This document shows, piece by piece, positions 3,795 to 10,848 of a DNA stretch of 16,985 nucleotides. A model generated the notes under the pieces. It was not told the DNA's origin. It worked only from the letters and a program-made list of their open reading frames with translations, and did not search any database. A program made the position numbers and the translations under genes. This DNA is from an uncultured Hippea sp. (GTDB taxonomy: Bacteria > Campylobacterota_A > Desulfurellia > JAADFJ01): positions 1-16,985 of the forward strand of contig CAJVZA010000045.1 in the NCBI GenBank assembly GCA_913009315.1, in the 5' to 3' direction. Within the stretch, counting starts at the first letter, position 1. Each line of letters opens with the position of its first letter.

Positions 3795-5006
3795 TTGCGA
3801 AAATATCTAACCTTTTTTCATTTGGCGCTTCCTTTTTCAATAGTGAATGGTGTGGTGTGGGGTATCGGCATCATGACTTTGCCAATATTGGCAAAAACAG
3901 GTGCCAGAGCAGGATTAACATTCGCCATGATCAATCTCGGTATAGGCGTAGGTGCAATATTGTGGGGCACGCTATCTCATACATTCAAAATTAGAAATCT
4001 TATATTCGCAAGCAGCTTTTTATCTTTTCTCGGTTGGCTTATCATAGCATTGTTTCACGGTAAGTTTTTGATACCTCTCGCCTTCTTTTTTGGTCTTTTT
4101 ACTGCAGGTATTTTTGCGCTTGCAAGTGTGATTGTTACAAATACATATAAAGAAAAAGAATGGGACAAATATATATCGCTGATGCAGGCTTTCATGACGC
4201 TCGGTACAGTTGTCGGATTGCTTATCACATCTATCTATACTAATGTCATAGCGGGTATACCGTTTTTGATCATAGCCTTTTTATCTTATATTCCTCTATC
4301 CCGGCATCATGGTTATGTAGTTAAACATCACAAACTTGACCTGTCTTTACTGAAACCAAAAATGCATTTTTCAGAAATATTTACAGGATATTTTTATCAT
4401 CGATTTAAAATCAAACATTTCCTTCATCTGAAGGATAAACGAATTTTGCTGCTGAATTTGGGCTGGATTTTCAGTTTATTGGCTGCAGCACCTGTTTATG
4501 CTATGTATCCGCTGCTGATGAAGCATGTATTTCTCGTCAAAGAATCCTCGTCTTCTTTAATTTATGCCGTAAGCACAGGACTGGGTGTCTATTTTTTTAT
4601 ACTGGCAGGTAAAATGTCTGAAAAGAAAAGCCCTTTATTTTCTTTTAATGCCGGCATACTGTTGTATCTTGTAAGTTTCCTGTTAATGTTTGCAGGTATA
4701 AAAACTCAATTTAATCTCTTTGGTATATTCGGTTTTATTTTCATGATTATTGCATGGTCATTCATCTCCGTCGGTATGAATGTGGGTATAGTTAAGCTTG
4801 CGGATGAATCAAAAAGAGCTGAGCTTTTAGGTGTTGCAAATACACTGCAGAGTTTTGATAATGTGATCGGAGGATTTTTAGGCGGCATTATAGCTGAAAT
4901 TTTTGGTTATTCTTATGTTATTTTATTTGGTCTGGTTTTTACATTTTTTGCTATCATAATTGGTATCAGCTTGCTAAAGGATAAAACAATAGGAGGTATA
5001 AATTAG
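3795..5006 (+). CDS. MFS transporter, partner of glutamate decarboxylase
   Basis: The 403-residue protein is almost entirely hydrophobic, with about twelve membrane helices in two halves (roughly 8-165 and 216-395) joined by a basic cytoplasmic loop (170-215, many His and Lys), the classic major facilitator layout. GTLSHTFKIRNLIF (58-71) between helices 2 and 3 resembles the MFS loop motif GxLaDrxGrr in degenerate form; AGKMSEKKSP (271-280) is its counterpart in the second half. The start is TTG 3795: an in-frame TGA lies at 3756-3758 and the next ATG (3873) would delete helix 1. The gene lies one base ahead of glutamate decarboxylase, so the substrate is plausibly glutamate, GABA or their exchange, although an unrelated amino acid or drug cannot be excluded. 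Confidence 0.82.
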   Translation: MRKYLTFFHLALPFSIVNGVVWGIGIMTLPILAKTGARAGLTFAMINLGIGVGAILWGTLSHTFKIRNLIFASSFLSFLGWLIIALFHGKFLIPLAFFFGLFTAGIFALASVIVTNTYKEKEWDKYISLMQAFMTLGTVVGLLITSIYTNVIAGIPFLIIAFLSYIPLSRHHGYVVKHHKLDLSLLKPKMHFSEIFTGYFYHRFKIKHFLHLKDKRILLLNLGWIFSLLAAAPVYAMYPLLMKHVFLVKESSSSLIYAVSTGLGVYFFILAGKMSEKKSPLFSFNAGILLYLVSFLLMFAGIKTQFNLFGIFGFIFMIIAWSFISVGMNVGIVKLADESKRAELLGVANTLQSFDNVIGGFLGGIIAEIFGYSYVILFGLVFTFFAIIIGISLLKDKTIGGIN

Positions 5007-5007
5007 T

Positions 5008-6399
5008 ATGCTTTCAAAGAAAAAAAAGGGTATCGTGCGCAATGGGATTAGTTCAACATATGCTGAGAGATTTTTTACAAAACCTGTGCCAAGATTTGAT
5101 ATACCGAAAGAAGGTATGGATTCCAATGCTGCATATCAAATTGTGCATGACGAACTCAATATTGACGGAAATCCATCGCTGAATTTAGCATCCTTTGTTA
5201 CAACGTGGATGGAGGATGGGGCGCAAAGACTTATCACTGAAAATTTGAATAAAAATCTTGTTGATCAAGATGAATATCCGCAGACAGGTGTGATACAGGG
5301 ACGTGTGGTGAATATGCTGGCAAGGCTTTTTCATGCACATGAAAATAATGAATATGTGGGTACGGCTACTGTGGGTTCATCTGAAGCTATTATGCTTGGG
5401 CTGCTGGCTCACAAATGGGCATTTAGAAAAAAAATGCAGAAATTGGGAAAAGACTACAGCAGACCCAATATAGTGGTTAGTGCGGATGTTCATATCGTAT
5501 GGGAAAAGTTTGCAAAATACTTTGATGTCGAGATGCGCACTATCCCTATGAAACGCGATAATTATATCCTCGATGTGGAAAAGATGAAAAATAGCATAGA
5601 TGAAAATACTATATGCGTGGGTGCCGTTTTAGGAACTACATTTACAGGTCAATTGGATCCTGTAGAAGATATAAACAGCATACTTCTGGATATAAAGAAT
5701 AAAAAAGGCTGGGATATTCCCATACATGTGGATGCTGCAAGCGGAGGTTTTGTTATTCCGTTTTTATATCCTGATTTGAAATGGGATTTTAGGTTATCTC
5801 AAGTCAGATCAATCAACGTTTCGGGTCATAAATACGGTTTGGTTTATCCGGGAATAGGCTGGCTCATTTTCAAAGACAAAACGGACTTGCCTGAGGATTT
5901 AATATTTTATGTGAATTACCTTGGGGGAGAAGAAGCTACATATACGCTTAATTTCTCAAGGGGCAGTTCCATGGTTATAGCACAATACTACAATCTTTTG
6001 AGATTGGGCAAGAGAGGGTATAAGCACATAATGGAAAACTCTTTATGCAACGCCAAATACTTATTGCGCGAAATAGAAAAAATTGATTTTTTTGAAATTA
6101 TAAATAAAGATTTGAAGATGCCTATAGTAGTGATGTCCATAAAGAATGATGCAGGTTTTGATGTATTTGAATTGTCTGCACAATTAAGACAAAAAGGGTG
6201 GATAGTTCCTGCTTATAGTTTGCCGAAAGATGCTGATGATATCTGCATACTGAGGATAGTTGTAAAAGAAAACTTCAGCAGAGATATGGCAGATCTTTTA
6301 ATAAATGATATATTATACTTTTCAGCTCAATTGCAAAACAATATAAAAACAAAGATTGCTAAAGTAGATAAAAACACCATACATAAGCATATCTGTTAA
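5008..6399 (+). CDS. gadB: Glutamate decarboxylase, PLP-dependent
   Basis: The 463-residue protein aligns by eye over its whole length with bacterial GadA/GadB (466 residues in Escherichia coli). It decarboxylates L-glutamate to GABA, consuming one cytoplasmic proton. Visible landmarks are NLASFVTTWMED (59-70) and D86 of the substrate pocket, GSSEA (123-127) contacting the PLP phosphate, HVDAASGGF (240-248) with D242 for the pyridine nitrogen, and SGHKYGLVYPG (272-282) with Schiff-base K275. The C-terminus ends IHKHIC, with H461 near the position of the pH-sensing C-terminal His of E. coli GadB, which closes the active site at neutral pH. AGGAGG at 4991-4996 precedes the ATG, inside the end of the MFS gene, and the two form an operon. 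The pairing suggests acid resistance or GABA production. Confidence 0.95.
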   Translation: MLSKKKKGIVRNGISSTYAERFFTKPVPRFDIPKEGMDSNAAYQIVHDELNIDGNPSLNLASFVTTWMEDGAQRLITENLNKNLVDQDEYPQTGVIQGRVVNMLARLFHAHENNEYVGTATVGSSEAIMLGLLAHKWAFRKKMQKLGKDYSRPNIVVSADVHIVWEKFAKYFDVEMRTIPMKRDNYILDVEKMKNSIDENTICVGAVLGTTFTGQLDPVEDINSILLDIKNKKGWDIPIHVDAASGGFVIPFLYPDLKWDFRLSQVRSINVSGHKYGLVYPGIGWLIFKDKTDLPEDLIFYVNYLGGEEATYTLNFSRGSSMVIAQYYNLLRLGKRGYKHIMENSLCNAKYLLREIEKIDFFEIINKDLKMPIVVMSIKNDAGFDVFELSAQLRQKGWIVPAYSLPKDADDICILRIVVKENFSRDMADLLINDILYFSAQLQNNIKTKIAKVDKNTIHKHIC

Positions 6400-7760: not shown

Positions 7761-9053
7761 ATGAAATCGGTTAGAATTGGAATTGCCGGGCTTGGAACCG
7801 TTGGCTCCGGAGTTGCCCGGATACTTGTTGAAAATAAAGACAAAATACGAAAGCATATCGGTTTTGATCTGGAGCTTAAACGCATTGCAACTTTGGATAA
7901 AAGTCAACTGGCTCCGATTGGTATAGACCATCTCATAACAGACGATCTTAATTCGCTGCTTGATGATGATATTGATATTGTTGTTGAGACTATCGGCGGA
8001 ATCGAGACCGCAAAAAACTTCATAGAATCTGCTCTTGCCGGAAAAGGGGTTGTGACTGCAAATAAGGCGCTGCTTGCGCAATATGGTATAGATCTCATAA
8101 AAACTGCACGCAAATATCATACTGAGCTTGCATTTGAGGCTGCTGTGGCCGGAGGAATACCGATTATCAGGGTTATAAAAGACGGACTTTCATCGGATAA
8201 GATTCTATCGATAAGAGGTATTGTGAATGGTACTGCGAATTTTGTTCTTTCAAGAATGCTGTCTGAAAAGCAGGAGTTTGATGATGCTCTGAATTTTGCC
8301 CGTAAATCGGGTTTTGCCGAGCGTGACCCGTCGTTCGACGTAGATGGAATAGACTCAGCTCACAAGGCTGCTATTATTGCACTTGTAGCATTTGGATATC
8401 CGGCCGGATTTAGCGATGTCTGGTATGAAGGCATAAGGAAAATTACATATCAGGATCTTAAAATAGCATACGATCTCGGTTACAAAATTAAGCTGATTGC
8501 TACCGCAAAAAAACAGGATGGATTGCTGGATATCAGAGTGCATCCTGAAATGATAAAGATGAATGATTTTCTCGCCAAAACCGATGGCGTTTATAATGCT
8601 ATAACTGTGAGAGGAAAATATTCAGGGAAAACTACCTATGTAGGTAAAGGGGCAGGGTCGCTTCCAACCGCCAACAGTATAGTTGCCGATATTATGGATA
8701 TGGCAAAAAGAATGAGATATGAAGGATTCGGCACTGTTTTTCCCTCGGGATTTGATAAGCTGGGCAGCTTTGAACTCAAGAAAAAGGAAAGTCTCAAACT
8801 AAAGTATTATCTTAGATTCAGTGCAGTTGATAAGCCTTCTGTGCTTTCGGCAATAAGCGGAATATTGGGTGAGAATGATATAAGTATTCACTCAATGATT
8901 CAGATAGGCAGGAGCGGAAATGGATTTGTGCCGCTTATAATAATGACGCATTCATCCGATGAAAATTCGATTCGGAGAGCATTGAGCAGAATAGATGCGC
9001 TTAATGTTATTGCAAAACCGACTGTTCTGATAAGGATTGCTGAAGATGAGTGA
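7761..9053 (+). CDS. hom: Homoserine dehydrogenase with C-terminal ACT domain
   Basis: The 430-residue enzyme catalyses NAD(P)H-dependent reduction of aspartate semialdehyde to homoserine, the branch point to threonine and methionine. The Rossmann fold begins with GIAGLGTVGSG (7-17). VVTANKALLA (97-106) carries conserved K102, EAAVAGGIPII (126-136) lies in the catalytic half, GIVNGTANF (153-161) follows, and FDVDGIDSAHK (192-202) supplies the conserved Asp and K202. Residues from about 352 (SAVDKPSVLSAI) to 427 form an ACT domain, usually the site of threonine feedback. The length matches monofunctional bacterial Hom; there is no aspartokinase fusion. AGAGG precedes the ATG. The stop overlaps the argininosuccinate lyase start by 8 bases, indicating a shared transcript. 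Confidence 0.96.
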   Translation: MKSVRIGIAGLGTVGSGVARILVENKDKIRKHIGFDLELKRIATLDKSQLAPIGIDHLITDDLNSLLDDDIDIVVETIGGIETAKNFIESALAGKGVVTANKALLAQYGIDLIKTARKYHTELAFEAAVAGGIPIIRVIKDGLSSDKILSIRGIVNGTANFVLSRMLSEKQEFDDALNFARKSGFAERDPSFDVDGIDSAHKAAIIALVAFGYPAGFSDVWYEGIRKITYQDLKIAYDLGYKIKLIATAKKQDGLLDIRVHPEMIKMNDFLAKTDGVYNAITVRGKYSGKTTYVGKGAGSLPTANSIVADIMDMAKRMRYEGFGTVFPSGFDKLGSFELKKKESLKLKYYLRFSAVDKPSVLSAISGILGENDISIHSMIQIGRSGNGFVPLIIMTHSSDENSIRRALSRIDALNVIAKPTVLIRIAEDE

Positions 9054-10848
9054 CCGGCTTTGGGGCGGGCGGTTCAGCAAGAAACCTTCTGAAATTATGA
9101 AACTGTTTAATGCTTCAATAAGCTATGACAAACGTTTGGCGCATGATGATATAGATCAGTCTATTGCCCATGTAAAAATGCTTTCAAAATGTAAGATTAT
9201 CAGTGATGCTGACAAAGAAAAGATAATAGACGGTCTGATGCAGATCGCAGATGAGATAAGATCCGGAAAATTTTCTTTCAGCGTTGATGATGAGGATATT
9301 CATATGAATATTGAGCGGCGTCTTATCGAACTTAAAGGCGATGCCGCAAAAAAGGTTCATACAGCCAGAAGCAGAAACGATCAGGTTGCAACCGATTTCA
9401 GACTTTTTGCAAAGAAAGCGTCTATTGAGGTTATCAAAAATATTATAGGACTGCAGAAGGCGATTGTGAGACTGGCTGAATCTAATCTATCCTTGATGAT
9501 GCCCGGATTTACGCATCTTCAGCATGCGCAGCCGATACTTGTATCTCATTGGCTTATGGCATATTTTGAAATGCTGACCCGCGATGCAGAGCAGTTTTTT
9601 GGGAGTTTGAAGCTTGCAGACAGCTCACCTCTGGGTGCCTGTGCACTCGCGGGTACTTCATTTCCGATTGACAGAAACTATACTCAGAGAACTTTGGGAT
9701 TTGCCGCTTCATCCGGTAATTCCATAGATGCGGTTTCAGATAGAGATTTTGCCATAAGTTTTCTTTATGCTTCAGCGGTTTGCAGTATGCATCTCTCGAG
9801 ACTATCCGAAGAGCTTATACTCTTTTCAACATCTGAATTTGGTTTTGTCAGGTTATCCGAAGAGTACAGCACCGGTTCGTCTATTATGCCGCAAAAACGA
9901 AATCCCGATGCGCTTGAGCTGATAAGGGGCAAGACAGGAAGACTTTACGGCAACCTTGTTAGTCTTTTAGTTGTCATGAAAGCGCTTCCTCTTGCTTATG
10001 ACAAGGATATGCAGGAGGATAAAGAGCGTTTTTTTGATAGTTTTGATACAATACATGATCTGCTGCAGGTGATGAGCGGTGTTGTATCATCTCTTAGCTT
10101 TGACAAGCAGACTTTTAACTTATCCCTAAAAAAGGGATTTATTACTGCAACCGATTTGGCTGATTATCTTGCCAAAAAAGGCATTCCTTTTCGTCAGGCA
10201 CACAAAATTACGGGTGAAATTGTCAAATATCTGGAATCTTCCGGCAGGGATTTCGAAACGGTAAGCATAGCTGAGCTGAAAAAATTTTCCGATGCAATAG
10301 ACGATGATATAAAAGATTATCTTTTGCCTGAAAATTCTATAAATTCGCGAAATAGCTATGGCGGAACATCATCGGAACAGGTTGGTTTTCAGATAAAAAA
10401 AGCTGCCGAAACCATAAAAGAAGAAGAACAAAGGCTAAAGCTTCCATTTTTGAATTATAAAAGATCACCGAAGCCGGCCGTTGATGCCATTGTTGAAAGA
10501 TCGGGCAAAATTCTTTTGATAAAAAGAAAATACGAGCCGTATGGATGGGCTTTGCCGGGCGGATTTATAGAGTATGGTGAATCTGCAGAAAAGGCAGTTG
10601 CAAGAGAGCTGAAAGAAGAAACCGGACTTGATGCGATCGGTATTAAGCAGTTCCATGTATATTCGTCTCCGCAAAGAGACGAAAGAGTGCATACAATCAG
10701 CATAGTGTTTGTTGTTGAGACTTCAGGAGATGCCGCAGCGGATGATGATGCGTCAGAACTGAAATGGTTTCTTGAGGATGATCTGCCGCATCTGGCATTT
10801 GATCATAAAAAAATTCTCAATGATTATCGTTTGACAAATAAATTATAG
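9046..10848 (+). CDS. argH: Argininosuccinate lyase fused to a C-terminal Nudix hydrolase domain
   Basis: Residues 1-463 are a complete argininosuccinate lyase, which splits argininosuccinate into arginine and fumarate in the last step of arginine synthesis. Landmarks are MSDRLWGGRF at the start, HTARSRNDQ (105-113), THLQHAQP (156-163) with the catalytic His, and the signature GSSIMPQKRNPD (277-288) on the mobile loop with the catalytic Ser. Family members normally end near residue 460. Here the frame continues without a stop into a full Nudix domain (about 465-596): VDAIVERSGKILLIKR, ALPGGF, and a perfect Nudix box from G506 through E512, R520-E521, E524-E525 and G527. That domain resembles ADP-ribose or nucleotide-sugar pyrophosphatases; its substrate is unknown. 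ATG 9046 is preferred over TTG 9037 because MSDRLWGGRF is the family N-terminus. The start overlaps the hom stop. Confidence 0.93.
   Translation: MSDRLWGGRFSKKPSEIMKLFNASISYDKRLAHDDIDQSIAHVKMLSKCKIISDADKEKIIDGLMQIADEIRSGKFSFSVDDEDIHMNIERRLIELKGDAAKKVHTARSRNDQVATDFRLFAKKASIEVIKNIIGLQKAIVRLAESNLSLMMPGFTHLQHAQPILVSHWLMAYFEMLTRDAEQFFGSLKLADSSPLGACALAGTSFPIDRNYTQRTLGFAASSGNSIDAVSDRDFAISFLYASAVCSMHLSRLSEELILFSTSEFGFVRLSEEYSTGSSIMPQKRNPDALELIRGKTGRLYGNLVSLLVVMKALPLAYDKDMQEDKERFFDSFDTIHDLLQVMSGVVSSLSFDKQTFNLSLKKGFITATDLADYLAKKGIPFRQAHKITGEIVKYLESSGRDFETVSIAELKKFSDAIDDDIKDYLLPENSINSRNSYGGTSSEQVGFQIKKAAETIKEEEQRLKLPFLNYKRSPKPAVDAIVERSGKILLIKRKYEPYGWALPGGFIEYGESAEKAVARELKEETGLDAIGIKQFHVYSSPQRDERVHTISIVFVVETSGDAAADDDASELKWFLEDDLPHLAFDHKKILNDYRLTNKL

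Follow-up and report, generated by a model that had tools for sequence, protein, structure and literature searches.

In marine gammaproteobacteria, argininosuccinate lyase (ArgH) occurs joined to an acetyltransferase of the N-acetylglutamate synthase type, an arrangement called ArgH(A) (PMC1382215; NCBIfam PRK12308), and in COG1058-PncC an ADP-ribose pyrophosphatase domain is fused to NMN deamidase, an enzyme of NAD recycling (PMC3680494). A sequence-only reading of the DNA studied here had pointed to the ArgH-acetyltransferase fusions, which are real (PMC1382215), and knew of none between ArgH and a Nudix hydrolase. This second statement also holds for the literature that we searched: we found no description of an ArgH-Nudix pairing in an open-access library. 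The protein databases must already carry the architecture for Hippea.

The window, i.e., the whole 16,985 nt stretch of DNA analysed, comes from an uncultured Hippea sp. and contains a single open reading frame at 9046–10848 (+ strand; ATG at 9046, stop codon at 10846–10848) that encodes a protein of 600 aa. As had been proposed from the letters of the sequence, a complete lyase and a complete Nudix domain share this one frame: Pfam matches were obtained to Lyase_1 (residues 8–302, 3e-70), ASL_C2 (365–433, 1.4e-25) and NUDIX (PF00293, 476–592, 9.2e-24; 84.4 bits versus a cut-off of 21.1), and the argH model TIGR00838 aligned to residues 5–457 over profile positions 1–454 of 455 (604.7 bits, cut-off 279.5). 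The lyase part (residues 1–457) corresponds to positions 9046–10416, the junction (about residues 458–474, delimited in the class alignment and marked by relaxed substitution) to 10417–10467 and the Nudix domain (residues 475–600) to 10468–10845, all on the + strand. The C-terminus is a Nudix domain and not an acetyltransferase, and PRK12308 matched the ArgH part only, at 496.3 bits and thus below its cut-off of 657, which places the protein outside ArgH(A). The gene is the only argH of its genome, the sole other match being a 469 aa protein with 25% identity. Immediately upstream lies hom, encoding homoserine dehydrogenase (7761–9053, +; NF004976), the 3′ end of which overlaps the start of argH-nudix by 8 bases (ATGAGTGA).

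The window belongs to a draft genome of 96 contigs, and a frameshift, a missed stop or an assembly error joining two adjacent genes would be a trivial explanation of such a frame. We consider this explanation practically negligible, since the frame has no internal stops, including the 10400–10460 interval in which a stop would have spoken against the fusion, and since the same architecture was found in 24 genomes, finished single-contig ones included. These were identified in a search of 99 genomes, 25 of which belong to Desulfurellia, the class containing Hippea, so that close relatives do not encode the two domains as separate genes: 24 of the 25 carry the fusion. Three of the 24 are incompletely readable, with the fusion cut by contig ends in G003 and G017 and read as two pieces flanking a run of undetermined residues in G013. 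In the remaining genome, G007, argG was found and no match to argH, hom or recJ (the hom search was run without a positive control); hence the assembly seems to lack the whole locus and, with hom and recJ absent as well, we rejected this genome as a natural experiment on the loss of ArgH. Four families contain the fusion (f1 to f4, the assignment of f4 as Desulfurella-like being tentative), and the protein of the window shares about 51–56% identity with those of the other families. Hippea is a sulfur reducer; as a separate observation, dsrA scored above its curated cut-off in only five of the 25 class genomes (G002, G006, G013, G019 and G020), each time beside a weaker second match that is probably dsrB.

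Outside the class, no ArgH-Nudix fusion was detected in 361 genomes when 386 genomes were searched with the ArgH C-terminus plus Nudix. The closest Nudix relatives there have 50–59% identity and are mostly separate genes, with ArgH encoded by a different gene. Two further, partly overlapping samples of 386 genomes gave no match spanning both parts beyond the class at an E value of 1e-45 or better, the outgroup sample being broad rather than complete, and viral contigs gave no match. In GC-rich genomes, the long frames that lie upstream of some stand-alone Nudix genes (L145, L193, L194 and L197–L202) were taken as read-through noise and not as fusions.

The N-terminal 457 residues look like a normal argininosuccinate lyase, which is expected to form a homotetramer. 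The lyase motifs HTARSRND, PGFTHLQHAQP (with H157) and GSSIMPQKRNPD (with S278 and K284) are conserved, as are the GSSxMPxKxNxD signature and the catalytic His and Ser, and H157, S278, S279, K284 and N286 are invariant in an alignment of 14 class sequences; for the roles of these residues we assume those of the delta-crystallin/ASL family. In all class genomes but one (24 of 25), argG scored above its cut-off.

In the Nudix domain, the box Gx5Ex7REUxEExGU spans G506–L528 and is followed by an X-loop (SSPQRDERVHTIS) and by the C-terminal motif AFDHKKIL. The seven box residues named beforehand (G506, E512, R520, E521, E524, E525 and G527) are at their expected positions; the first six are invariant in the 14-sequence alignment, and G527 is replaced by S in several members. 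Nei-Gojobori dN/dS values between the window and two congeners were 0.17–0.21 for the Nudix part and 0.10–0.13 for ArgH, showing that both domains are under purifying selection. Their catalytic residues are intact, and both appear to be functional.

Because only ArgH structures were retrieved when the whole chain was compared with known folds, the Nudix part was modelled alone (pLDDT 88.9). Its best match was the Aquifex aeolicus structure 2yyh (Z 20.8, rmsd 3.1, 130 residues), followed by the Nudix domain of NrtR with ADP-ribose, 3gz8 (Z 19.1, rmsd 1.8, 127 residues). A Z of 17.0 was obtained for the bifunctional NMNAT/ADP-ribose pyrophosphatases (2qjt and 2r5w), and general Nudix folds such as the MutT type scored nearly as high as the ADP-ribose-type ones (Z 17.9). 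A profile built from the class and stand-alone Nudix domains likewise retrieved 2yyh first (2.6e-51), then 2fml, 3i9x, the Nudix domain of Francisella NadM, and NrtR. A proline in the X-loop after the Nudix box is common to ADP-ribose diphosphatases (PMC5389931), and P542, located about 15 residues past the box and invariant in the class and in the stand-alone relatives, resembles it by eye. The nearest characterised relatives bind or cleave ADP-ribose; for the exact subfamily, of which 2yyh is the closest solved member, we found no member with a measured activity. Most class genomes hold two Nudix domains, one being the fused copy, which is the only close member of its subfamily there. In the Hippea and Desulfurella-like genomes examined, the second domain is similar to CoA pyrophosphatase, at a score below the cut-off of that model; in the genome of the window it is a different, poorly assigned protein. 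A stand-alone macrodomain protein was present in 19 of the 25 class genomes and was not seen in that of the window, which is 87.6% complete.

The fusion had been suspected to be recent, which does not agree with its occurrence in all 24 class genomes that contain the locus, across four families: it is old and stable in the class. The junction reveals how it may have arisen. In f2–f4, CPRCxYPVKxYxNPxPTVD comes after the ArgH tail, and stand-alone Nudix relatives begin with this same stretch (e.g., LCPHCGARIEVYRNPVPTVD in L128), indicating that a complete stand-alone Nudix was attached. In the genus of the window the CxxC pair has been lost from the junction (LKLPFLNYKRSPKP), so that its short, clean appearance is a derived state and not a sign of youth. 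The earlier view that the two parts meet almost at the natural start of a stand-alone Nudix protein is therefore correct, whereas the near absence of a linker is not general, the junction being longer in most of the class, where CPRCxYPVK is kept. Substitution is relaxed in this segment, which is flexible and fast-evolving.

We infer a single origin, with which the trees are compatible, although neither test demonstrates a clade. The best Nudix tree separates f1 and f4 from f2 and f3; forcing all fusions together cost 7.3 log units in the Nudix tree (p-AU 0.354) and 1.5 log units in the ArgH tree (p-AU 0.42). The shared order of hom followed by argH-nudix, which holds for 15 of 16 loci read in the class (a contig end truncates the remaining one), favours one vertical origin. 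Further downstream the neighbourhoods diverge: in f2–f4, argH-nudix is preceded by hom and followed by recJ, nrdJ (not in f2), tyrS, coaX and gpsA, names that were assigned by reading the sequences rather than by a family search, and in the genus of the window nuo genes follow. We discarded these neighbours as a clue to function, as they are general housekeeping genes that indicate no pathway. Some observations were made in passing. One recJ match (L203; G003:C208:6202-7935), in a draft genome, contains one internal TGA and may be a frameshift or an artefactual join. Elsewhere in the window, positions 3795–6399 encode an MFS-like transporter directly followed by a glutamate decarboxylase (TIGR01788, 648 bits), two genes reminiscent of those that together confer glutamate-dependent acid tolerance, and a small ORF at 182–451 has, by eye, some likeness to RelE/ParE-type toxins.

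The same Nudix subfamily is attached to other proteins elsewhere. Pfam confirmed as partners a Macro domain (L186, L188), NadC (L138), a CoaD-like nucleotidyltransferase (L130), AMMECR1 (L129), PanE (L191), a second Nudix with a zinc ribbon (L183) and an HD domain (L195), and further sister fusions were read by sequence (L184, L187, L189, L190, L192 and L196). The Nudix domain stands behind the ADP-ribose-binding Macro domain in four genomes, which represent three families (L186, L188, L189 and L190; Pfam was run on the first two only). Fusions with three partners from cofactor synthesis, namely NadC, the CoaD-like protein and the ketopantoate reductase PanE, are located at L138:5933-7147, L130:2828-3817, L191:1083-2408 and L192:806-2128. 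AMMECR1 is fused to the Nudix or adjacent to it at L129:5250-6305, L184:1051-2220, L132:5775-6742 and L139:5916-6900, being the next gene after Nudix in L132 and L139, and a functional link between the two is possible. The targets of Macro domains are derivatives of ADP-ribose, and NadC, CoaD and PanE take part in making NAD and CoA; these partners therefore support ADP-ribose or a related cofactor as the substrate, while the many attachments of a fusion-prone Nudix weaken the case for a specific link to arginine.

Taking these observations together, we regard it as somewhat probable that the fusion is a bifunctional housekeeping protein, composed of a normal ArgH and an active ADP-ribose-type Nudix that are kept together for co-expression. 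According to this reading, argH would have merged a single time with an entire stand-alone Nudix gene, prior to the split of the class into families, each ArgH tetramer would display four Nudix domains, and the most likely reaction of these would be cleavage of ADP-ribose, or of a closely related ADP-X compound derived from NAD, into AMP and ribose 5-phosphate. The fusion may have been retained because it co-expresses two needed enzymes, probably with no channelling between them; we infer that the two activities are independent. The main competitor, to which we assign a smaller but appreciable likelihood, is that the Nudix domain is a general housecleaning enzyme active on a different substrate, which could be an oxidised nucleotide, NADH, a nucleotide sugar or a dinucleoside polyphosphate. 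The nearest relative of solved structure, 2yyh, bears the name of a putative 8-oxo-dGTPase domain, MutT structures match almost as well, and an HD domain is among the fusion partners of the subfamily; however, the NadM and NrtR branch, of ADP-ribose type, is among the best family-level relatives by sequence profile, and the Macro, NadC and CoaD partners point to NAD, ADP-ribose and CoA metabolism.

A functional coupling of the two domains seems unlikely to us. It would mean that the Nudix part senses or degrades a nucleotide (ADP-ribose, NADH or an AMP-related compound) and thereby adjusts flux through the lyase, or that arginine or fumarate modulates the Nudix activity. Retention of the fusion over class-level divergence would fit such coupling, the related NrtR/AraR type offers examples of single-domain sensors, and in ArgH(A), too, argH has gained a second enzyme domain (PMC1382215). 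Against it, the Nudix box is fully competent for catalysis, the subfamily has many unrelated fusion partners, the junction is flexible and fast-evolving, and the gene order in f2–f4 is that of a mixed housekeeping operon. More doubtful still is the idea of an ArgH regulated in both directions, in which the Nudix domain would read or remove an NAD-derived signal such as ADP-ribose and tie arginine output to the NAD or redox state. A direct link of the Nudix domain to arginine synthesis probably does not exist, and the suggestion of the sequence-only reading that it cleans up by-products of argininosuccinate synthesis finds no support, as this subfamily is normally a separate gene and has other partners elsewhere.

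The locus thus represents an old, class-wide fusion of a textbook arginine enzyme in an apparently undescribed pairing, and ArgH-Nudix is a clean marker for Desulfurellia. One Nudix subfamily has repeatedly acquired metabolic enzymes of widely differing kinds as fusion partners, several of which act in NAD, CoA or ADP-ribose metabolism, and this pattern offers a clue, open to testing, to what this widespread and uncharacterised subfamily acts on. Like ArgH-Nudix, ArgH(A) consists of an N-terminal ArgH with an added C-terminal enzyme domain and is old and lineage-wide, but its partner is an acetyltransferase of the arginine pathway and not an unrelated Nudix hydrolase. The NadM-Nudix proteins (2qjt, 2r5w and 2qjo), which combine NMN adenylyltransferase with ADP-ribose pyrophosphatase, resemble it in having an ADP-ribose-type Nudix of related fold and sequence C-terminal to a metabolic enzyme; there, however, the partner is an enzyme of NAD synthesis with a clear pathway link, which ArgH does not have. 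COG1058-PncC also places an ADP-ribose pyrophosphatase, stand-alone in other lineages, on a metabolic enzyme, but its fold is not Nudix and it is tied to NAD recycling. Closest in sequence are the stand-alone Nudix proteins of the YRNPxPTVD...AFDHxxIL type (e.g., 2yyh of Aquifex aeolicus), which belong to the same family with 42–59% identity, many sharing the CxxC-YRNP start and the AFDH end with the fused domain; in most bacteria this subfamily is a separate gene, and among the genomes examined it is fused to ArgH only in the class containing Hippea.
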